Source of the DNA: Polaromonas sp.
Lineage (GTDB): Bacteria; Pseudomonadota; Gammaproteobacteria; Burkholderiales; Burkholderiaceae_C
Direction: 5' to 3'
Assembly: GCA_013298945.1 (NCBI GenBank)
Contig: JAAFJR010000001.1
Coordinates: 248,001-312,000 of the forward strand
DNA length: 64,000 nt
Under the pieces are notes generated by a model that searched no databases, was not told where the DNA came from, and saw nothing but the letters and a program-made list of their open reading frames with translations. The position numbers were made by a program, and so were the translations under genes. Shown here piece by piece: positions 697-64,000 of this stretch. Numbering within the stretch: the first letter of the stretch is position 1; each line of letters begins with the position of its first letter.

Positions 697-745
697 TGCT
701 ATAAATAAAATAGCTGTTTAGGCAACAAATATGCCGGCTACAGCC
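697..745 (-). repeat. 45-bp dispersed repeat, copy 1 (intergenic)
   Basis: Read on the minus strand this contains GTAGCCGGCATATTTGTTGC, then the conserved AGCTAT block, and ends ATAGCA. It lies between the yaeQ start and the purB stop. The core is 697-741, with a GGCT flank to 745. In the frame used by coding copies of this family it carries a TAA at codon 8, as the intergenic copies mostly do. Confidence 0.85.
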
Positions 746-3501: not shown

Positions 3502-3550
3502 GGCTGTAGACGGCGTATTTGTTGCCTGAGTAGCTATAAATTAAATAGCA
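3502..3550 (+). repeat. 45-bp dispersed repeat, copy 2 (overlaps glnE 3' end)
   Basis: The core is 3506-3550 (GTAGACGGCGTATTTGTTGC, then GCTATAAATTAAATAGCA). Its last 10 bp form the final codons and the TAA stop of glnE on the opposite strand, so the repeat provides the end of that protein (A-I-stop). Almost identical in sequence to the copy inside rseB. Confidence 0.9.
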
Positions 3551-13306: not shown

Positions 13307-13430
13307 ATTTCTTTATTTTAAGCAAGATTCATCCTAAAAATAGCTTATTTAAAGCATAAATAGCAAACACTTATCCGCTCATCAAGCATACACTTTGCGG
13401 TAACATAAATAAAAACGAGAGACCAATAGC

Positions 13431-17070: not shown

Positions 17071-17118
17071 CCTGTAGTCGTTATATTTGCTGCCTGAAAA
17101 GCTATTGAAATAATAGCA
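17071..17118 (+). repeat. 45-bp dispersed repeat, copy 3 (intergenic)
   Basis: The core is 17074-17118 (GTAGTCGTTATATTTGCTGC, then GCTATTGAAATAATAGCA). It lies in the convergent spacer between the indolepyruvate oxidoreductase and the adenylate cyclase gene. One of the more diverged copies, but with identical length and the conserved TGCCT and GCTAT blocks. Confidence 0.8.
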
Positions 17119-19485: not shown

Positions 19486-22398
<2,913 letters not shown>

Positions 22399-22424: not shown

Positions 22425-22453
22425 CCGTCATTCCCGCGTTGGCGGGAATCCAT
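22425..22453. repeat. Short palindromic repeat (ATTCCCGC/GCGGGAAT type)
   Basis: CCGTCATTCCCGC, 4-nt centre, GCGGGAATCCATGG between the convergent valS and TusA-like genes. The same unit occurs twice, head to head, at 38125-38191. These CGTCATTCCCGC units are widespread in beta- and gamma-proteobacterial intergenic DNA. The hairpin could act as a bidirectional transcription barrier, though it lacks a T-run. Confidence 0.8.
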
Positions 22454-22465
22454 GGCGGTGGCTGG

Positions 22466-25676: not shown

Positions 25677-25725
25677 AGCCTTAGCGGGCATATTTACTGC
25701 CTAAGATGCTATCAAAATTATAGTA
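25677..25725 (+). repeat. 45-bp dispersed repeat, copy 4 (encodes C-terminus of the FeeM-like protein)
   Basis: The core is 25681-25725. On the opposite strand it codes for the last 14 residues and the TAA stop of the FeeM-like gene (ending DSILGSKYAR), the stop codon being the complement of the first repeat triplet. Diverged but with identical length and the conserved ACTGCCTAAG and GCTAT blocks. Confidence 0.85.
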
Positions 25726-27425: not shown

Positions 27426-28127
27426 TTGGAATATACCGTTGCTAAAAGTATGCCCCATTTAACTGCTATTCAAGCCCGCGTTTTGGGTACGCTCATGGAA
27501 AAAGCCCGTACGGTGCCCGACAGTTACCCGCTGACGCTGAATTCATTGCTGCTAGGTTGCAACCAAAAGAGCAGCCGTTTTCCGAGCATGGAATTGACTG
27601 AAGCCGACGTATATACTGCCTTAACAGCTATGAAATCAATAGCTAATGAAGCTCAGCAACCATTAATCCGCGAGCTTAGTGGCAGCAGAAGCACGCGTTT
27701 TGAGCACAATTTTCAGCGGGCTGTGGGTGTGCCTGAGCAATCTGCCGTTATTTTGGGTTTGCTGATGCTGCGTGGCCCACAGACAGCCGGGGAGCTGCGC
27801 ATCAATACCGAACGCTGGTATAAATTCAGCGATATTTCGTCGGTTGAAGGCTTTTTGGATGAGTTGCAAGACCGGTCGATTGAAAAGGGGGGTGCACTGG
27901 TGCAAAAATTGCCACTCGCTCCTGGAGCGCGTGAGCAGCGCTGGGCGCACTTACTGTGTGGGCCTATAGATTTGACCTTGTTAGCAACCGAAAACGAGGC
28001 GCAGGAGCTGGCAGCAAATGAAGGCTCGGTGATTCACCAACGCATCAGCGCGTTAGAGCAGGAGGTAGCTCACCTGCGAAGCATCGTCGAAAACTTGAGC
28101 AAAGAGTTGGGTCTGTCTCAGTTATGA
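27426..28127 (+). CDS. yceH: YceH/DUF480 family protein
   Basis: A 233-residue protein of two winged-helix repeats. Family landmarks: [20 protein letters not shown] (about 18-37), [21 protein letters not shown] (about 115-125) and the second-domain WAHLLCG. The start chosen is TTG at 27426, 9 nt after AGGAA; an ATG at 27450 has no ribosome binding site. Residues 59-73 (within [18 protein letters not shown]) are coded by a complete 45-bp dispersed repeat. Compared with the remembered E. coli YceH sequence, the region between the conserved LTE/LSE motif and the next wing is longer by about five residues. The function of YceH is unknown. Confidence 0.88.
27600..27644 (+). repeat. 45-bp dispersed repeat, copy 5 (inside yceH)
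   Basis: In frame with the gene: codons from GAAGCCGACGTATATACTGC to GCTATGAAATCAATAGCT, read as [15 protein letters not shown]. It is used in the same orientation and frame as the copies in rseB, the acyl-CoA dehydrogenase and the ABC transporter. The TAA typical of intergenic copies at codon 8 is TTA here. Confidence 0.75.
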
Positions 28128-29437: not shown

Positions 29438-30562
29438 ATGAATTTCGATTTCACAGACGACCAAGAACAGTTGCGCGACGCGGTACGCAAATGGGTAGAC
29501 AAGGGTTACGGCTTTGAGCGCCGCCGCAGCATCGAGGCGGCAGGTGGTTTCTCCAAAGAAGCATTTGACGAGCTGAATGAGCTGGGTTTGGGCGGTTTGT
29601 ACATCTCTGAGGCCGACGGCGGTTTGGGCATGGGTCCGGTGGAGGGCATGGTGGTGATGGAAGAGCTGGGGCGCGGTATCGTGCTGGAGCCTTTTGCGCA
29701 AACTTTGATTTCCAGCGGCATGCTGTCTGGCTACGCGCCGACAGCTCTCAAAGCCGCTTGGTTACCGAAAATTGCCGCTGGTGAGGCGCTGGTTGTTCTG
29801 GCATACCAAGAACGTGCGGCACGTTATAAATTGAATGCTTGCACTTCAAAAGCAGTAAAAACAGATGTAGCCGGCGATAAATATGCCTTGACAGCTATCA
29901 AAAGTGTAGTGCCTGCAGGTGATAAAGCAGATGCCTTCTTGGTGCCGGCGATGTTGGACGGCAAGCTAGCGCTGTTCTTGGTTGAGCGACATGCCGCCGG
30001 CGTGATGGCGACGGGCTACGGAACCCAAAACGGCAGCCGTGCTGCGGAGTTGACTTTGGCCAACAGCCCAGCACAGTTGGTAACTTTGGACGGTTTGACC
30101 GCGCTAGAGCACGGTGTGGACATCGGTATTGCTGCAACTTGCGCTGAAGCCGTGGGTGCGATGGACAAAACAGTCGCCATCACTGCCGAATACATGAACA
30201 CCCGCAAGCAGTTTGGCGTGGTCATCAGCAGCTTCCAGGCGCTGCGCCACCGCATGGCGGATGTGAAGATGCAGTTGGAATTAGCTCGCTCTATGAGCTA
30301 TTACGCCGCCTTGAAGCTCAACGCGCCAGCAGCGGAGCGTCGTTCTGCCATGGCACGTGCCAAGTACCAATTGGGTAATTCCATGCGCTTTGTGGGTCAA
30401 CAAGCGGTGCAATTGCATGGTGGTATTGGCGTGACTGATGAGTACATCGTCAGCCACTATTTCAAGCATTTGACGCAGTTGGAGATGACGTTTGGCGACA
30501 CTTTGCACCAGTTGGGTGAAGTATCTAGCCGGATGCAAGACACGGCTGGGGTTTTTGCTTAA
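29438..30562 (+). CDS. Acyl-CoA dehydrogenase, pimeloyl-CoA dehydrogenase small-subunit type
   Basis: A 374-residue partner of the preceding enzyme, starting MNFDFTDDQEQLRDAVRKW after a GGAATAACAAC ribosome site. The C-terminal GGIGVTDEYIVSHYFK and RFVGQQAVQLHG motifs are those of the FAD-binding helical domain of ACADs. The mid beta domain is divergent: residues 144-158 (VAGDKYALTAIKSVV) are coded by a 45-bp dispersed repeat exactly where relatives have the D-G-x-x-L-x-G-x-K-x-V-V strand. The two subunits probably form a heteromeric enzyme acting on dicarboxylyl- or branched acyl-CoA. Followed by the convergent FimV-like gene. Confidence 0.82.
   Translation: MNFDFTDDQEQLRDAVRKWVDKGYGFERRRSIEAAGGFSKEAFDELNELGLGGLYISEADGGLGMGPVEGMVVMEELGRGIVLEPFAQTLISSGMLSGYAPTALKAAWLPKIAAGEALVVLAYQERAARYKLNACTSKAVKTDVAGDKYALTAIKSVVPAGDKADAFLVPAMLDGKLALFLVERHAAGVMATGYGTQNGSRAAELTLANSPAQLVTLDGLTALEHGVDIGIAATCAEAVGAMDKTVAITAEYMNTRKQFGVVISSFQALRHRMADVKMQLELARSMSYYAALKLNAPAAERRSAMARAKYQLGNSMRFVGQQAVQLHGGIGVTDEYIVSHYFKHLTQLEMTFGDTLHQLGEVSSRMQDTAGVFA
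29867..29911 (+). repeat. 45-bp dispersed repeat, copy 6 (inside acyl-CoA dehydrogenase)
   Basis: GTAGCCGGC then GATAAATATGCC, ACAGCTATCAAAAGT. It keeps the first ten bases of the repeat, the TGCCT block and AGCTAT at their exact spacing, and is read in the same frame as the other three plus-orientation coding copies. The interior (GATAAATAT) is more diverged, so of all copies this is the one most open to being chance convergence. Confidence 0.6.
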
Positions 30563-37051: not shown

Positions 37052-37100
37052 TACTATTAATTTTATAGCTGCTTAGGCAACAAATACGCCGGCTATAGCC
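37052..37100 (-). repeat. 45-bp dispersed repeat, copy 7 (intergenic, fabH-fabD)
   Basis: The core is 37052-37096, with a GGCTAT flank. It matches the family consensus almost perfectly. Immediately downstream, 37120-37137 contains an extra GCTATATTATTTATAGC that repeats the terminal hairpin of the unit. It lies in the leader of fabD. Confidence 0.9.
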
Positions 37101-37158: not shown

Positions 37159-38106
37159 ATGAAACCATTTGCATTCGTCTTCCCTGGTCAAGGCTCACAA
37201 TCCGTCGGTATGTTGGACGCTTGGGGTGACAACCCCATCATCGCGCAAACGTTACAAGAAGCGTCTGATGCGCTGCACGAAGATGTGGCGGCCCTCATCA
37301 AAAACGGCCCCAAAGAGGCGCTGGCGCTGACGACGAACACCCAACCCGTCATGCTGGTGTCTGCCATTGCGGCTTACCGCGTTTGGCTGGCGGAGACCGG
37401 GCTTGCGCCATCCGTCGTCGCGGGGCATTCGCTGGGGGAATATTCGGCTTTGGTCGCTTCCGGCGTGTTGACGCTGTCGCAAGCCGCGCCCTTGGTGCGT
37501 TTACGCGCCCAAGCCATGCAAGACGCCGTGCCAGTCGGGCAGGGCGCGATGGCGGCAATTTTGGGCTTGGATGCTGCAAAAATCATAGCTGTATGTGCAA
37601 GCATTACGCCGGCTACAGGCGAAAATGGCACTGTAGAGGCCGCCAATTTCAACGACCCCGGCCAAACTGTCATTTCTGGCAGCAAAGCCGCTGTGGATGC
37701 AGCCTGCGAGCAGCTCAAAGCCGCAGGTGCAAAACGCGCCTTGATTTTGCCGGTGTCAGCACCTTTCCACTCGCAATTGATGCGCCCAGCCGCTGAAAAA
37801 CTGGCCGAAGCCCTCAAATCCGTCTCCTTCGCTGCGCCGCAAATCCCCGTCGTCAACAACATCGACGTCAGCGTGCAAACCGAGGCAGCCGCCATCAAAG
37901 ACGCGCTGTACCGTCAAGCTTTTGGCCCTGTGCGCTGGGTGGAATGCGTCGCGGCGATCAAAGCGCGTGGTGTTTCGACGATTGTGGAATGTGGTCCAGG
38001 CAAGGTTTTGGCGGGTTTGGTCAAGCGCATTGATGCGGAATTGACAGGTGCGGCGCTGTTTGATCCGGCGAGCTTGGCTGAGGTGAAGGCGCTTTTGCAG
38101 GCTTAA
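37159..38106 (+). CDS. fabD: Malonyl-CoA:ACP transacylase
   Basis: 315 residues. The active-site Ser is S91 in GHSLGEYSALV, with the FPGQGSQSVGM oxyanion motif at 8-18, Arg in RLRAQAMQ and the catalytic His in PVSAPFHSQLM. It loads malonate onto ACP. Residues 139-154 (AAKIIAVCASITPATG) are coded by a 45-bp dispersed repeat. In the remembered E. coli FabD this stretch, between IIGLD and the NFNSPGQ motif, is about four residues shorter. Since fabD is essential, the repeat-coded loop must be tolerated. The ribosome site is AAGGTAG. Followed by a GC-rich inverted pair and fabG. Confidence 0.96.
   Translation: MKPFAFVFPGQGSQSVGMLDAWGDNPIIAQTLQEASDALHEDVAALIKNGPKEALALTTNTQPVMLVSAIAAYRVWLAETGLAPSVVAGHSLGEYSALVASGVLTLSQAAPLVRLRAQAMQDAVPVGQGAMAAILGLDAAKIIAVCASITPATGENGTVEAANFNDPGQTVISGSKAAVDAACEQLKAAGAKRALILPVSAPFHSQLMRPAAEKLAEALKSVSFAAPQIPVVNNIDVSVQTEAAAIKDALYRQAFGPVRWVECVAAIKARGVSTIVECGPGKVLAGLVKRIDAELTGAALFDPASLAEVKALLQA
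37572..37620 (-). repeat. 45-bp dispersed repeat, copy 8 (inside fabD)
   Basis: The core is 37572-37616: minus-strand GTAGCCGGCGTAATGCTTGC ... AGCTATGATTTTTGCA. In the fabD frame it gives AAKIIAVCASITPAT. The gene reads it in the opposite orientation to the rseB copy and in the same frame as era. The TAG the consensus would give in this frame is changed to TGT. Confidence 0.8.
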
Positions 38107-38124
38107 ACTAACACTCTATCAATC

Positions 38125-38191
38125 CGTCATTCCCGCGAAGGCGGGAATCCATGCCCCGCCACTGTGGATTCCCGCCTTCGCGGGAATGACG
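38125..38191. repeat. Inverted pair of GGGAAT palindromic units between fabD and fabG
   Basis: CGTCATTCCCGCGAAGGCGG... runs into its own reverse complement after a 13-nt centre (ATGCCCCGCCACTG region). Two units face each other, so the RNA could form either two small hairpins or one long stem of about 27 bp. Related to the single unit at 22425-22453. Position within the fab operon suggests an effect on transcript processing or stability. Confidence 0.9.
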
Positions 38192-41987: not shown

Positions 41988-42671
41988 ATGAAAACTGACA
42001 ATAACTTGCCGTTAGATGAGTTTAAAAAAGCACTCATCAGTGATTTGGCGGATGGATTGCTACGCGGCTCTGCCTTTGCGGATGCTATGTCTTTGCTGGA
42101 CAGTAGCAGCCAAGCCCGTGCATATTGGCATGGTTTGCATGTGTTTGGCGACGTTTTGCGTGGCGAAGCGAGTTCACATGCATCAAACACCGCCAAAGAC
42201 ATGGCATTTTTAGACATTTTCAGAGCGAATTTGTCCAAGGAATCACCCTTGAAGGCTGTCGCGCAGGTGAATGCCGTTAAAGATGCTAACGATGCTAACG
42301 ATGCTAACGATGCTAACGATGCTAACGTGCACGTCACAGTTCCTTCCGCCAACGACTCTTTCTTCAATTGGAAATGGGTGGGAGGCTTGTCAGCCGCTGC
42401 CGCTGTTGTTGCTTTTAGCTGGAATTTGGTCAGCAATACCGCTATTTCGCCAAACGGTGCGGGGGCGCAATTGGCTCAGTCGGTGCCACAAGCTGAACCC
42501 GTAGTTACTCAAACATCCGCTGGGGCAATGCTGCGTAACCCACAGCTTGACGCTTTGATTGCAGCACACAACCAAGCCGGTGGCAGTTCTGCGTTGCAAA
42601 TGCCTTCTGGCTTTTTGCGCAGCGCTACGTTCACGACTGATGTATCTGCGACGGGTTTGGGTGCTAAATGA
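41988..42671 (+). CDS. rseA: Anti-sigma-E factor RseA (MucA-like)
   Basis: A 227-residue single-pass inner-membrane protein. The N-terminal cytoplasmic part (about 1-70), including LISDLADGLL near residues 15-24, binds RpoE. A TM segment lies at about 128-146 (GGLSAAAAVVAFSWNLVS) and the periplasmic tail binds RseB. Between the sigma-binding domain and the TM is a perfect five-fold DAN repeat coded by 9-bp units. It is 52 bp after rpoE, and its stop overlaps the rseB start by 4 bp (ATGA), so synthesis of both negative regulators is coupled. Confidence 0.9.
   Translation: MKTDNNLPLDEFKKALISDLADGLLRGSAFADAMSLLDSSSQARAYWHGLHVFGDVLRGEASSHASNTAKDMAFLDIFRANLSKESPLKAVAQVNAVKDANDANDANDANDANVHVTVPSANDSFFNWKWVGGLSAAAAVVAFSWNLVSNTAISPNGAGAQLAQSVPQAEPVVTQTSAGAMLRNPQLDALIAAHNQAGGSSALQMPSGFLRSATFTTDVSATGLGAK
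42282..42326 (+). repeat. Five perfect 9-bp tandem repeats in rseA
   Basis: GATGCTAAC repeated five times without mismatch, coding D-A-N units in the juxtamembrane cytoplasmic linker of the anti-sigma factor. Perfect identity implies recent expansion by slippage; unit number could vary without breaking the frame. Confidence 0.95.
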
Positions 42672-43705
42672 GTATAAAGATGTCATTTTTAACGATTTAT
42701 AGACTTGTAGCCGGCGTATTTGTTGCCTCTATAGCTATAAATTCTATAGCAAATGATGATTTAAATGCGACTAGGCAACAAGCTACGCAGGCTGCAAATT
42801 CAGCTAAAACGGCGCACACTGGTGGTTACAAGTCAGTCAACGAATGGCTGGTGCGCATCCATGATGCTTCGCGCCGCCGCGCTTACACAGGGACGTTTGT
42901 TGTCTCTGTCGGTGCAGAAATGGCCAGTGCACGCATTTGGCATGTGTGTGATGGTGAGCAGCAGATGGAACGGGTGGAATCTCTCACCGGTACGCCGCGT
43001 TCCACATTTAGGCGTAATAACCATGTGGTCACCTTTTTCCCAGATACCAAGATCGCTCGCTCAGAAGAGCGCGAGTCGTTGGGCATTTTCCCCAATTTTC
43101 TCAAATCTAATGACAGCGCGATTGCTGAGTTTTACAACATCAAAATGCTGGACGCCGAGCGTGTGGCGGGGCTGGAGACGGAAGTTGTTCAGCTGATTGC
43201 CAAAGACGCTTTGCGATACAGCTACCGTATTTGGACTGAGCGCAAAAGCGGCTTGGTTGTGAAACTGCAGACTTTAGATGCCTCTGGCCGCGTGATAGAG
43301 CAAGCTGCGTTTTCAGAGTTGAACCTAGATGCGCCGGTGAAGATGGAAAAATTGGCCGCCATGATGAACAACACGGCTGGCCACAAGCTAGAGCAGGTTG
43401 AAATGAGCAAAACAACCGCCATATCGCAGGGCTGGACCATGTCGCGCAGTGTGCCAGGCTTTGCATCGGTAAGTTGTTTTAAGCGGACTGACACGATGCA
43501 ATGGATTTTTTCAGATGGTCTGGCTACGGTTTCGCTCTTTGTCGAGCCTTTTGATCGCAAACGCCACACCCAAGAAGGTGTTTGGGCTATGGGGGCAACG
43601 CAAACGCTAGCAAAACGCTTGGACGATTGGTGGCTAACAGCGGTAGGCGAAGTGCCCGCGCCCACGTTGAAGGTCTTTGCGCAGCACCTAGAGCGCAAAA
43701 AGTAA
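42668..43705 (+). CDS. rseB: Sigma-E factor regulatory protein RseB (MucB)
   Basis: A 345-residue periplasmic protein that binds the RseA tail and shields it from proteolysis, sensing mislocalised lipoproteins or LPS. The N-terminal LolA-like domain includes WLVRIHDASRRRAYTGTFVV (about 60-79) and ARIWHVCDGEQQMERVESL; the C-terminal domain ends with the family-type FVEPFD and GATQ segments. The signal peptide is unusual: residues 14-28 (VAGVFVASIAINSIA) are coded by a complete 45-bp dispersed repeat, supplying the hydrophobic core and a plausible S-I-A cleavage site. A second, partial inverted copy may follow at 42774-42797. The ATG overlaps the rseA stop. Confidence 0.93.
   Translation: MSIKMSFLTIYRLVAGVFVASIAINSIANDDLNATRQQATQAANSAKTAHTGGYKSVNEWLVRIHDASRRRAYTGTFVVSVGAEMASARIWHVCDGEQQMERVESLTGTPRSTFRRNNHVVTFFPDTKIARSEERESLGIFPNFLKSNDSAIAEFYNIKMLDAERVAGLETEVVQLIAKDALRYSYRIWTERKSGLVVKLQTLDASGRVIEQAAFSELNLDAPVKMEKLAAMMNNTAGHKLEQVEMSKTTAISQGWTMSRSVPGFASVSCFKRTDTMQWIFSDGLATVSLFVEPFDRKRHTQEGVWAMGATQTLAKRLDDWWLTAVGEVPAPTLKVFAQHLERKK
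42703..42751 (+). repeat. 45-bp dispersed repeat, copy 9 (codes RseB signal peptide core)
   Basis: The core is 42707-42751: GTAGCCGGCGTATTTGTTGC ... GCTATAAATTCTATAGCA. Nearly identical to intergenic copies, so insertion is recent or the sequence is constrained. The codon-8 stop of intergenic copies is TCT here. In frame it reads VAGVFVASIAINSIA. Confidence 0.92.
42774..42797 (-). repeat. Partial inverted copy of the 45-bp repeat in rseB
   Basis: Minus strand reads roughly GCAGCCTGCGTAGCTTGTTGCC, about half of the unit, facing copy 9 over 23 bp. One base longer than the consensus at this point, hence a different frame. It may be a degenerate fragment or an independent similarity. Confidence 0.35.
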
Positions 43706-49769: not shown

Positions 49770-50824
49770 ATGCTACTAAAAATATAGCTACCAAGGCAAT
49801 AAATACATCGGCTACAGCCGATAATATACCTGAAAATATAGATATTTCTGCTGAGCAGGCGAGAATTACTGCCATGTTAGGCGCTGCCGCTGCGCCCAAA
49901 ACGATTACCGTTGTTCCCGTTGAATCGCAGCGCTGCGGTTTGATTGCCATTGTTGGCAAACCAAACGTTGGCAAATCAACCTTGCTCAACGCTTTGGTCG
50001 GTCAAAAAATTAGCATTACATCCCGCAAAGCGCAAACCACCCGTCATCGCATCACTGGTATGTCGACCCGGGGTGAGGTGCAATTTGTGTTTGTGGATAC
50101 GCCAGGTTTTCAAACCCTGCATGGCAACGCCTTGAACCGCTCGCTCAATAAAGCCGTGCAGGGCGCCGTGGGCGATGTCGATTTGGTGTTGTTTGTGGTG
50201 GAAGCAGGGCGCTCGAATATGGCGGACGACAAAGTCGTGTCTTTGCTGAGCAACGACATTCCAACACTGTTGATTGCCAACAAGCTAGACATGGTTAACC
50301 GCCGTGGCGACATTGCACCGTGGCTGCAAGGTATGCAAGCGCAGCATAAGTTTGATGAATTTGTACCCATGTCGGCTAAAAATGCTAAAGACATTGAGCG
50401 CTTGTTCGACATTTGTGAAAAATACTTGCCGCAGCAGCCGTGGATGTATGACGCTGAAGAACTGACTGACAAAAGCGAAAAGTTCTTAGCAGGTGAAATG
50501 GTGCGTGAAAAGTTGTTCAGATTGACTGGTGACGAGCTGCCGTACACATCAACCGTTGTAATTGACAAATTTGAAGAAGAAGCGCCCAAGAAAAAGGGTC
50601 AAAAACGCTTGGTCAAAGTCGCGGCAACCATTATTGTTGAGCGTGATGGCCACAAAGCCATGGTGATTGGTGACAAAGGCGAGCGCATCAAGCGCATTGG
50701 CACAGAAACCCGCGTAGAGCTTGAACGCTTGATGGATGCCAAGGTGTTTATCGAGCTGTGGGTCAAAGTACGCTCGGGTTGGGCTGATGACGAAGCACGG
50801 GTGCGCTCGTTTGGCTACGAATAA
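49766..50824 (+). CDS. era: GTPase Era
   Basis: Up to 352 residues. An essential GTPase for 30S maturation: G1 GKPNVGKST (about 65-73), G2 region around [14 protein letters not shown]3 DTPGFQ (about 112-117), G4 NKLD (about 175-178) and a C-terminal KH domain ending [15 protein letters not shown]. The predicted N-terminus is about 45 residues longer than in E. coli, and residues 3-18 ([16 protein letters not shown]) are coded by a 45-bp dispersed repeat. The ATG overlapping rnc supports the long form; an internal ATG at 49874 ([10 protein letters not shown]) with GGCGAG upstream is a plausible alternative start that would place the repeat in the leader. Confidence 0.93.
49771..49819 (-). repeat. 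45-bp dispersed repeat, copy 10 (N-terminal extension of era)
   Basis: The core is 49771-49815: minus strand GTAGCCGATGTATTTATTGC ... AGCTATATTTTTAGTAGCA. In the era frame it is open because the consensus TAG is AAG here. Same orientation relative to the gene and same frame as the fabD copy. Confidence 0.88.
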
Positions 50825-50897
50825 TGCCCCCACGCTTGCCACTGCGTGTGCTGTGCTGCCCCCCAAGGGGGCTAATTTCCCTTGAGGCGGCTTTACG
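50824..50897 (+). repeat. GCCCCC/GGGGGC repeat, copy B (era-recO spacer)
   Basis: TGCCCCCACGC ... GTGTGCTGTGCTGC followed by CCCCCCAAGGGGGC and CTTGAGGCGGCTTTA. It fills the whole spacer between era and recO and carries the recO leader. Related to 40832-40882. Confidence 0.75.
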
Positions 50898-50906
50898 GGA
50901 AATTTG

Positions 50907-52904: not shown

Positions 52905-52953
52905 GCCCCTAGCCGTCGTATTTATTGCCTAAGCAGCTATGAAAAATATAGTA
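52905..52953 (+). repeat. 45-bp dispersed repeat, copy 11 (intergenic, acpS-nagZ)
   Basis: The core is 52909-52953 (CTAGCCGTCGTATTTATTGC, TAAGCAGCTATG ... ATAGTA). A near-consensus copy with TAA at codon 8, between acpS and nagZ. Confidence 0.88.
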
Positions 52954-58372: not shown

Positions 58373-58421
58373 TGCTACATTATTTATAGCTATTGAAGCA
58401 ATAAATACGCCGGCTAGAGGC
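58373..58421 (-). repeat. 45-bp dispersed repeat, copy 12 (intergenic)
   Basis: The core is 58373-58417: minus strand CTAGCCGGCGTATTTATTGC ... AGCTATAAATAATGTAGCA. It lies between the terminator above and the stop of the Lrp gene, 5 bp from that stop. The only intergenic copy with no stop in the frame used by coding copies (codon 8 is TCA). Confidence 0.88.
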
Positions 58422-62326: not shown

Positions 62327-64000
62327 CTGCAACTGCATAGGCAGCTTCTGCATCGGCATTGGGCGATTTTTCAAGCGTCCACGTTTTGTTATGAAATGCC
62401 GCAACGCTGGGTCTATGTGCTATAGATATAATAGCACCTTTGGCAATTAATACGCTGGCTAGAAGCCGTTTGTAAAGAGTATTTTCGGCTTCTACGTCTA
62501 GTGCGCTGGTCGCTTCATCGGCAAATATCCACTGCGGTTTTTTAAGTAAAACACGGGCAATCGCTAAGCGTTGTTGTTCGCCGCCAGAGAGCATTTGCCC
62601 CCACGCTTGTTTGTCGTCCAAACGGCTAGCCAATTGCGGCAACAAAGCATCAGTCAAAGCCGTTTTCAGCGCTGCATCGTCATACTTCGTAGCTGGTTCT
62701 GGATATGCCAGTGCATCGCGAAGCGTACCATTCGGGAAATAGGGATGCTGCGGAATAAACATGGCGTTCGCAGGCATGTGAATTTGTCCTTTGCTAAACG
62801 GCCAGATGCCAGCAAAGGCGCGGAAAAGCGTTGATTTACCGCTACCCGATGGGCCGCTGAGCAAAATAGCATCGCCCGTTTGCGCATTGAGAGCCGTGTT
62901 TGCAAGCAGCACTTTACCGTTGGGAAGAGACAGCGTTAAGTTCTTGGTCGACAAAGTATCAGAGCTGGCAGCAACAGAGGTTTGAGTAGATAGCAATGCT
63001 TCGCTCTTTGACATACTTTCGTCAAAGCTGGTCAAGCGGTCAGTCGTGGCGCGCCAGCTGGCAAGCCCGCTGTAGCTATCTACAAACCAACTCAAGGAAT
63101 CTTGAACCTTGCCAAACGCACTCGCAATTTGCATCAATTGTCCCAGTTGAATCGCGCCGCTGAAAAAGCGCGGTGCAGCGACGATGAAGGGGAAAATAAT
63201 CGCGGCTTGGCCGAAGAAGCTGGTAAACCAAATCAAGTTCTTTTGTGCTTTGATAAGGGCTAAATAGTTTCGAATGACGGTGGTAAACCGCGTATCTAAT
63301 TGCGTTTTCTCAACGCCTTCGCCTTTATCCAAAGCAATAGATTCGCTGTACTCACGCACGCGCACCATGTGGTGGCGAAAATCTGCTTCGTATTTTTGTT
63401 GGAAGAAGTTTAGACTGATTTGCGACCTGCCGATATAGTGCGTCAACACACTGCCAACCAAGCAATAAATCACCGCTGCCCACAGCATATAACCTGGAAT
63501 GGTGTAGTCACTGCCACCCAACGTAAACGAAAAAGCGCCAGAGAGTCCCCAAAGAATGCCTACAAAGCTAACCAGAGTGACCACAGAGTTCAGCAAGCCC
63601 ATGCACAACGAAATCGTTTGTGTGGTGAACTGGTTCACATCTTCAGAAATCCGCTGGTCAGGATTGTCTGTATTTATTGCGTTGGTATCTGCAGCATCAG
63701 ATTTTGTGAAACGTGTCAGTTCCAGCTTGTAAAAAGTTTGGTTGCTCAGCCAGCGTTGCAAGTAGTAACTCGTCATCCACTTTCGCCAGCGCATCTCTAG
63801 TATTTGCGTGAGGTAAAACTTGTAAACAGCAATCACGATGCCACCAAAAGCTAGATAGCTAAAAACGCCCATTTGCTGCCAAAAAACTGTTTCATTTTTG
63901 GCTTGCAAAGCATCGTAAAACGCGCCGTTCCAATCGTTGAATTTAACTGCAACGTAAACAGTCGCTAAATTCAGTGAAACAATTGCCAGCAACAGCCCAC
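62310..64000 (-). CDS. SbmA/YddA-type ABC transporter, fused permease-ATPase (5' end outside window)
   Basis: At least 560 residues. The N-terminal ABC-membrane-2 domain ([26 protein letters not shown] motif) has about five TM helices, then the ATPase domain with Walker [12 protein letters not shown], signature [14 protein letters not shown], Walker [13 protein letters not shown] and the H-loop IAHRPSV. This fusion type resembles YddA/BacA-SbmA relatives, which import peptides or vitamin-B12-like compounds. The frame continues without a stop to 64000, so the first residues are missing. The strand before the H-loop is coded by a 45-bp dispersed repeat. It overlaps queC by 17 bp. Confidence 0.88.
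62418..62467 (-). repeat. 45-bp dispersed repeat, copy 13 (inside ABC transporter)
   Basis: The core is 62418-62462: minus strand CTAGCCAGCGTATTAATTGC ... GGTGCTATTATATCTATAGCA. In frame it gives [15 protein letters not shown], and the next residues are the H-loop His-Arg. Same frame and orientation as the rseB copy; codon 8 is AAA instead of TAA. Confidence 0.85.

Follow-up and report, generated by a model that had tools for sequence, protein, structure and literature searches.

The window, that is, the whole stretch of 64,000 nucleotides of Polaromonas sp. DNA analyzed here, contains a copy of a dispersed repeat within the part of rseB that encodes the signal peptide. This locus raises the question of whether a repeat became the export signal of the sigma-E regulator RseB, or whether it formed within an export signal that was already there. 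The initial annotation had taken the first view and regarded the repeat as a mobile-like family that may be able to donate export signals.

RseB residues 14-28 are encoded by the repeat

The ATG start codon of rseB overlaps the rseA stop (ATGA). Residues 14-28 of RseB (VAGVFVASIAINSIA) fall within the motif copy at 42706-42751, which shares 88% identity with the copy at 3505 across 49 nt. Its 46.6-bit match to the repeat profile confirms that these residues are built from the repeat. Signal peptides were scored with a home-made proxy, not a trained predictor, on a scale where called genes have a median of 1.75 and a 95th percentile of 4.86; the motif itself can raise the score. By this proxy RseB has the features of a Sec signal peptide (positive n-region, hydrophobic h-region, small residues at -3/-1), with a score of 4.97, VFVASIAI as h-region and a cut between SIA and NDD. 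The score fell to 0.34 once residues 14-28 were deleted, in agreement with their earlier description as the hydrophobic core and probable S-I-A cleavage site.

Hundreds of copies of a bipartite palindromic motif

The core consensus of the motif, CTGTAGCCGGCGTATTTATTGCCTAAGCAGCTATTAAATTTATAGCA, has 47 positions (18 of them G or C) with A/T-rich flanks, and carries 62 bits of information in intergenic copies and 52 bits in coding copies. Positions 20 and 32 are T in about 100% of the 199 copies that align without gaps, while columns 37-39 hold almost exclusively A or T. Two parts are palindromic, with the dyad halves GCTAT-N7-ATAGC and GGCG-N7-TGCC, which form two operator-like palindromes whose centres are about 22 bp apart.

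Genome-wide, a 20-base piece of the repeat was found at 512 places with up to 3 mismatches, and its reversed control at none. Such pattern counts miss copies, and the count by iterated profile on contig C1 (841,336 bp, 27% of the genome) is preferable: 201 copies at E<1e-3, 119 on the plus and 82 on the minus strand, with 0 in the reversed or block-shuffled contig. By extrapolation, the whole genome holds about 730. The window has 12 strong copies on both strands, and 14 at E<1e-3 by profile (Table 1). Open reading frames contain 84 of the 201 C1 copies. By location, 105 copies are intergenic and 75 fall within called genes; N-terminal extensions hold 9, stops are overlapped by 9 and starts by 3. 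These classes carry error because the C1 gene calls (754 genes) are home-made and place the rseB start too late. The host of the copy at 62418..62462 is presumably an ABC-type ATPase, as judged from how it reads.

Table 1. The rseB gene and the copies of the motif in the window.
Feature	Position	Strand	Remarks
Motif copy, intergenic	697..743	-	49.7 bits
Motif copy over 3' end of a minus-strand gene call	3504..3550	+	48.1 bits
Motif copy, intergenic	17072..17118	+	32.5 bits
Weak motif-like copy, within gene	20686..20723	+	19.4 bits
Motif copy, C-terminal end of a minus-strand gene	25682..25724	+	36.1 bits
Motif copy within gene	27599..27643	+	36.5 bits; present in G001, absent from G002 at equal length
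Weak motif-like copy within gene	29866..29909	+	19.3 bits; partial in G001 and G002
Motif copy, intergenic	37053..37098	-	52.9 bits
Motif copy within gene, antisense	37572..37618	-	29.2 bits; half formed in G001 at equal length; absent from G002, 3-residue indel
rseB, host gene, 345 aa	42668..43705	+	ORF; Pfam PF03888 and PF17188 (MucB/RseB N- and C-terminal domains)
Motif copy, RseB residues 13-28 (h-region and S-I-A cleavage site)	42706..42751	+	46.6 bits; in 4/4 genus members
Motif copy, codons 2-18 of gene, antisense reading	49771..49817	-	36.5 bits
Motif copy, intergenic	52910..52952	+	47.6 bits
Motif copy, intergenic	58373..58419	-	45.7 bits
Motif copy within gene	62418..62462	-	40.0 bits

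The spacing of copies is more even than chance would give (CV 0.83, against a random mean of 0.99 and a random 1st percentile of 0.86), and the minimum start-to-start gap on C1 is 258 bp. Divergent gaps are avoided: of 103 intergenic copies, 2 lie in divergent, 34 in convergent and 67 in tandem gaps. The three longest motif-free stretches, read by eye, hold conserved genes, which we take to be pst, rpsB-tsf-pyrH and the like. Across the family, 54 of 250 genomes and 37 of 141 genera contain the exact 3' half, and the count for its reversed control was 0 in both cases. The 5' half is specific to the genus: in four other genera, sampled at 7-8 copies each that were picked by their 3' half, the palindromic symmetry is kept and the letters are changed. 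A search for stem covariation within the genome gave paired counts equal to those of shuffles. No match to a known RNA family was obtained within the window at the Rfam gathering threshold, and no earlier report of the motif was found among the matches listed from the open-licence PMC literature.

These features bear on the main rival explanation, in which a DNA-organising protein would bind the motif. Its user would be a DNA-binding protein of the chromosome, or a nucleoid or replication function, with selection or biased conversion spreading the sites in place. Even spacing, the two pairs of dyad halves, the A/T-only-like columns 37-39 and a 5' half that retains its symmetry though its letters change between genera are all consistent with such a role. 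Nevertheless, hundreds of sites of 50-60 bits seem beyond the need of a regulator, and the stems do not covary within the genome beyond shuffles, so that we consider this explanation rather unlikely.

Other repeats were also seen in the window. A different palindromic repeat (CGTCATTCCCGCG... GGCGGGAATCCA) lies at 22425-22454 and 38124-38191, once as a 27-bp perfect inverted pair. A GC-rich repeat of about 85 bp at 50820-50905 has relatives in all three of three sister genomes among the matches listed, and one other copy on C1. Four copies of a 29-nt AT-rich, CCTAAAAATAGCTTATTTAAAGCATAAAT-like repeat, at least 69% identical to the reference copy, start at 13333, 25636, 39019 and 58922 and may be partly due to chance.

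Most coding copies very probably arose in place

If the motif had been inserted into genes, its hosts would be expected to be longer than their relatives. In the best PDB alignments, the motif region is ungapped in four of the five proteins where it is spanned: adenosine deaminase, FolK, HAD phosphatase and ProRS (prolyl-tRNA synthetase). A second PDB alignment of HAD phosphatase has two one-residue gaps in the motif, and the best alignment of an alpha/beta hydrolase does not span it. The exception is MoaC (L168:3682-4137), which has 8 more residues than its best solved relative, located at the motif end and beyond it, and is possibly a case of real added length.

The genus is represented by four genomes; three of them, G000 (the window's genome), G001 and G002, were read in part, as was the outgroup G018. 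Ortholog comparisons inside the genus were kept when identity was at least 50%, which left 40; the 12 rows below 50% (3 from G001, 9 from G002) were dropped. Where the motif is absent from G001 or G002, 11 of 16 comparisons have equal length and 5 have indels within 3 residues. Equal length was also found in 4 of 6 comparisons with a partial motif, and in 8 of the 18 with the motif in both genomes, the other 10 having indels within 3 residues. In adenosine deaminase, for example, G000 has DLASAYIAKAAIDNVAVCE and G002 has DLASAYFAKAADDNVTVCE. Over 15 equal-length comparisons, differences were toward the consensus in G000 at 218 positions, in the other genome at 33 and in neither at 30, a count that is biased since the G000 copies were chosen for the motif. 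The motif-free outgroup G018 was compared over 400 kb: one site (245336) aligned without gaps and MoaC with 4 gaps, two further alignments were gapped and no more than 40% identical, and three others did not cover the motif. Indels near motifs thus occur but fail to explain most coding copies.

Shared coding copies point the same way: DNA at third codon positions is conserved, while peptide residues drift. Third-position identity reaches 89/113 in the motif vs 242/430 in flanking codons for G001 (8 copies) and 95/123 vs 232/530 for G002 (10 copies), or overall 0.77-0.79 in motifs and 0.44-0.56 in flanks. First-position identity is not raised (93/113 vs 392/430 in G001, 91/123 vs 401/530 in G002). 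We conclude that an in-place, DNA-level origin is very probable for most coding copies.

Intergenic copies may have arisen by copying or insertion. Many motif positions, counted over all classes of copies, are common to the genomes: where flanks were found, G000 copies are occupied at 23 of 30 sites in G001 and 13 of 24 in G002. Empty intergenic sites vary in length (107/4, 105/0, 95/1, 84/10 and 87/98 nt). This variation would suit a mobile palindromic element, REP-like or miniature, that a RAYT-type transposase moves and whose copies in genes are in-frame survivors, as would the high information content, which looks as if copied. The motif resembles the GTAG/CGTC REP elements with RAYT transposases in its palindromic parts, in having some ORF copies and in the avoidance of divergent gaps that passages of PMC3733652 describe for REPs. 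The genome also has one RAYT-like Y1_Tnp gene (L098; G000 C1:192325-192918) whose stop codon is followed, 18 bp on, by a motif copy; with 105 intergenic copies and 754 called genes, however, one copy beside it is unremarkable. Unlike REPs, the motif lacks a conserved GTAG tag (the would-be G is conserved in only 47%), 84 of 201 copies are genic, and most tested coding copies are not insertions and bring no added length. A RAYT-moved REP is therefore improbable, and less likely than a protein-binding site.

RseB export most likely preceded the motif

The comparison of rseB 5' ends in sister species placed the motif at the same position and in the same frame in all four genus genomes. The four motif stretches are MSIKMSFLTIYRLVAGVFVASIAINSIAND, MSINMSFLMKFRALASVFTALAAINSIAND, MNTFSFMHFRVLAFVFIACNAINSIAND, and MPMFLNKIQLKTAVAGIFIALIAIKSIANE (48% identity). 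RseB of G002 (L034) lies on a long branch and is only 48% identical to the window's RseB, below several other genera.

The genus leaders score 28-47 bits, and the best of 6300 codon-shuffled leaders 9.3 bits. This contradicts, for the genus, the idea that an old signal-peptide coding sequence (AINYVA-like) resembles the repeat through common descent or chance. That idea draws on six outgroup loci with the 3' stem GCTAY-N7-RTAGC in frame in the rseB leader, though these reach only 2.0-11.4 bits. Moreover, five of the six outgroup genomes hold 21-169 places of the 3' half of the repeat (up to 1 mismatch), and the sixth (G044) only 5. We find an old resemblance of this kind barely credible. Overall, the in-frame 3' stem occurs in the rseB leader of 9 of 63 loci, three of these from the genus, where some loci are a single genome under two identifiers. 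Leaders with the stem form no single supported clade. The tree, with 63 rows, is poorly resolved, and 5 changes are needed to account for its 11 labelled rows; the stem may have had one origin in rseB leaders.

Across the four species, third positions are invariant in 9 of 16 motif codons of rseB vs 51 of 290 codons for the mature protein (Fisher p=0.0009), and first positions in 10 of 16 vs 168 of 290. The rseB signal peptide thus changes its residues and retains the wobble bases of the motif. The signal-peptide proxy is passed by 43 of 50 motif-free RseB orthologs, and the median cleavage position is 28 whether the motif is present or absent. Since motif-free orthologs pass the proxy with the same median cleavage position, RseB export most likely came first and the motif later.

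These results bear on the initial proposal that a mobile repeat was inserted into rseB and domesticated as its export signal. The copy does encode the signal peptide in all four genus members, in frame, and the proxy score collapses without residues 14-28; to that extent the proposal stands. Donation by an inserted element is not supported: the signal peptides of motif-free relatives are already present and similar in size, coding copies elsewhere are mostly equal in length to motif-free orthologs, and conservation in the motif lies in third codon positions of the DNA rather than in the peptide. Insertion into rseB was rejected on the signal peptides of the motif-free relatives and the gap tests, and we regard it as very improbable.

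Repeats were also seen in the neighboring rseA gene, where five tandem GATGCTAAC copies at 42282-42326 encode (DAN)5 and precede a hydrophobic segment. The same gene holds, in Rhodoferax and relatives, an antisense in-frame repeat-like stretch at eight loci (profile E 3e-7 to 0.33; L040, L041, L043, L044, L047, L048, L061 and L038, around 1920-2110).

Signal peptides as hosts of the motif

On C1, 12 proxy signal peptides, that of rseB included, hold motif midpoints, against 1.5 expected. Motif density is 0.93 per kb in proxy signal peptides (0.84-1.19 over three thresholds), 0.92 in intergenic DNA and 0.10 in other coding DNA, so that signal peptides tolerate the motif about as well as intergenic DNA does. 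Ten N-terminal hosts were scanned against Pfam; two had no match, and eight matched SCO1/SenC, SNase, MlaA, cyclophilin, TctC, polysaccharide deacetylase and, in two cases, SLT. These families have known exported members, which backs the enrichment even though the proxy score responds to the motif. Coding copies are only modestly enriched near N-termini: of 84, 14 begin in the first 30 residues counted from the longest ORF start (expected 7.6, p=0.018), and with called starts the figure is only 10 of 75 vs 7.0 expected.

The signal-peptide character that had been ascribed to the consensus itself is only partly borne out. Read in the RseB frame, the consensus gives VAGVFIA(stop)AAIKFIA, and of the 103 intergenic copies that align without gaps, 74 are interrupted by a stop in this frame; the forward reading VAGVFxAxxAIxxIA and the backward reading xAIxxIAxQAINTPATA, in contrast, both suit a signal peptide. 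Because both readings fit, the motif could have formed harmlessly in RseB, which would already have had a signal peptide with a loosely constrained hydrophobic stretch. Rather than having donated the export signal, the motif seems to be hosted by it, and the repeat looks like a passenger of the signal peptide.

Comparison with known systems and possible driving force

The explanation we lean towards is that the dispersed motif builds up in place through molecular drive, as uptake sequences do, and that signal peptides are hosts that tolerate it. Existing sequence would be driven toward the consensus wherever the encoded protein tolerates the change. The force behind it would be motif-biased DNA uptake followed by recombination, as for the Haemophilus USS and the Neisseria DUS, an attribution that we offer tentatively, by analogy. 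Like USS and DUS, the motif has hundreds of copies on both strands, genic and intergenic. According to passages of PMC1626085, the same gap test indicates that USS and DUS arise by substitution and not by insertion, as did most coding copies here (4/5 PDB alignments, 11/16 sister comparisons). Even spacing and presence in ORFs, described for uptake sequences in parts of PMC1939737, are shared by the motif. Lineage dialects of uptake sequences, noted in sections of PMC3630211, have a counterpart in its genus-specific 5' halves (four other genera, 7-8 copies each). A bias of uptake sequences to gene termini in Pasteurellaceae is mentioned in a passage of PMC2346458.

The motif differs in shape from the short, non-palindromic cores of USS and DUS (9-12 bp), having 47 positions plus A/T-rich flanks, 52-62 bits and two dyad parts. 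Its host family, Comamonadaceae, lies outside the two families named for uptake sequences in the passages of PMC7811141. ComEC is present in all four genus genomes and also in 10 of 14 control genomes, and is therefore not diagnostic. By these comparisons the motif appears to work like an uptake sequence, yet it is not filed as one.

Two further families of repeats invite comparison. Rickettsia palindromic elements lengthen their hosts. Like them, the motif has copies in frame within many protein genes; unlike theirs, most of its tested hosts are not longer, MoaC and the 5 of 16 comparisons with indels excepted. RPE-1 is mentioned in a passage of PMC3733652. The beta-proteobacterial repeat element BRE (about 90 bp, up to 29 copies per genome, sometimes in tandem, with Bordetella copies averaging 69% GC, by the description in passages of PMC3110155) is, like the motif, a Comamonadaceae repeat with some copies in coding sequences. 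The motif is set apart from BRE as described there by its 18/47 G+C, its hundreds of copies and the lack of C1 copies closer than 258 bp start to start.

Whatever the driving force, dozens of proteins have residues altered by the motif without insertion, and in-frame repeats should not be read as domesticated mobile elements before a gap test. It is conceivable, and we put it forward with reserve, that Comamonadaceae have an uptake-type signal of their own, a long bipartite motif with genus dialects that recasts genes in place and has signal peptides as its landing sites, which would make them a third family with self-recognising DNA exchange. If biased uptake is indeed the force, sequence-specific transformation would extend beyond Pasteurellaceae and Neisseriaceae, and a new receptor, together with a much longer recognition motif, could be studied in this freshwater lineage.
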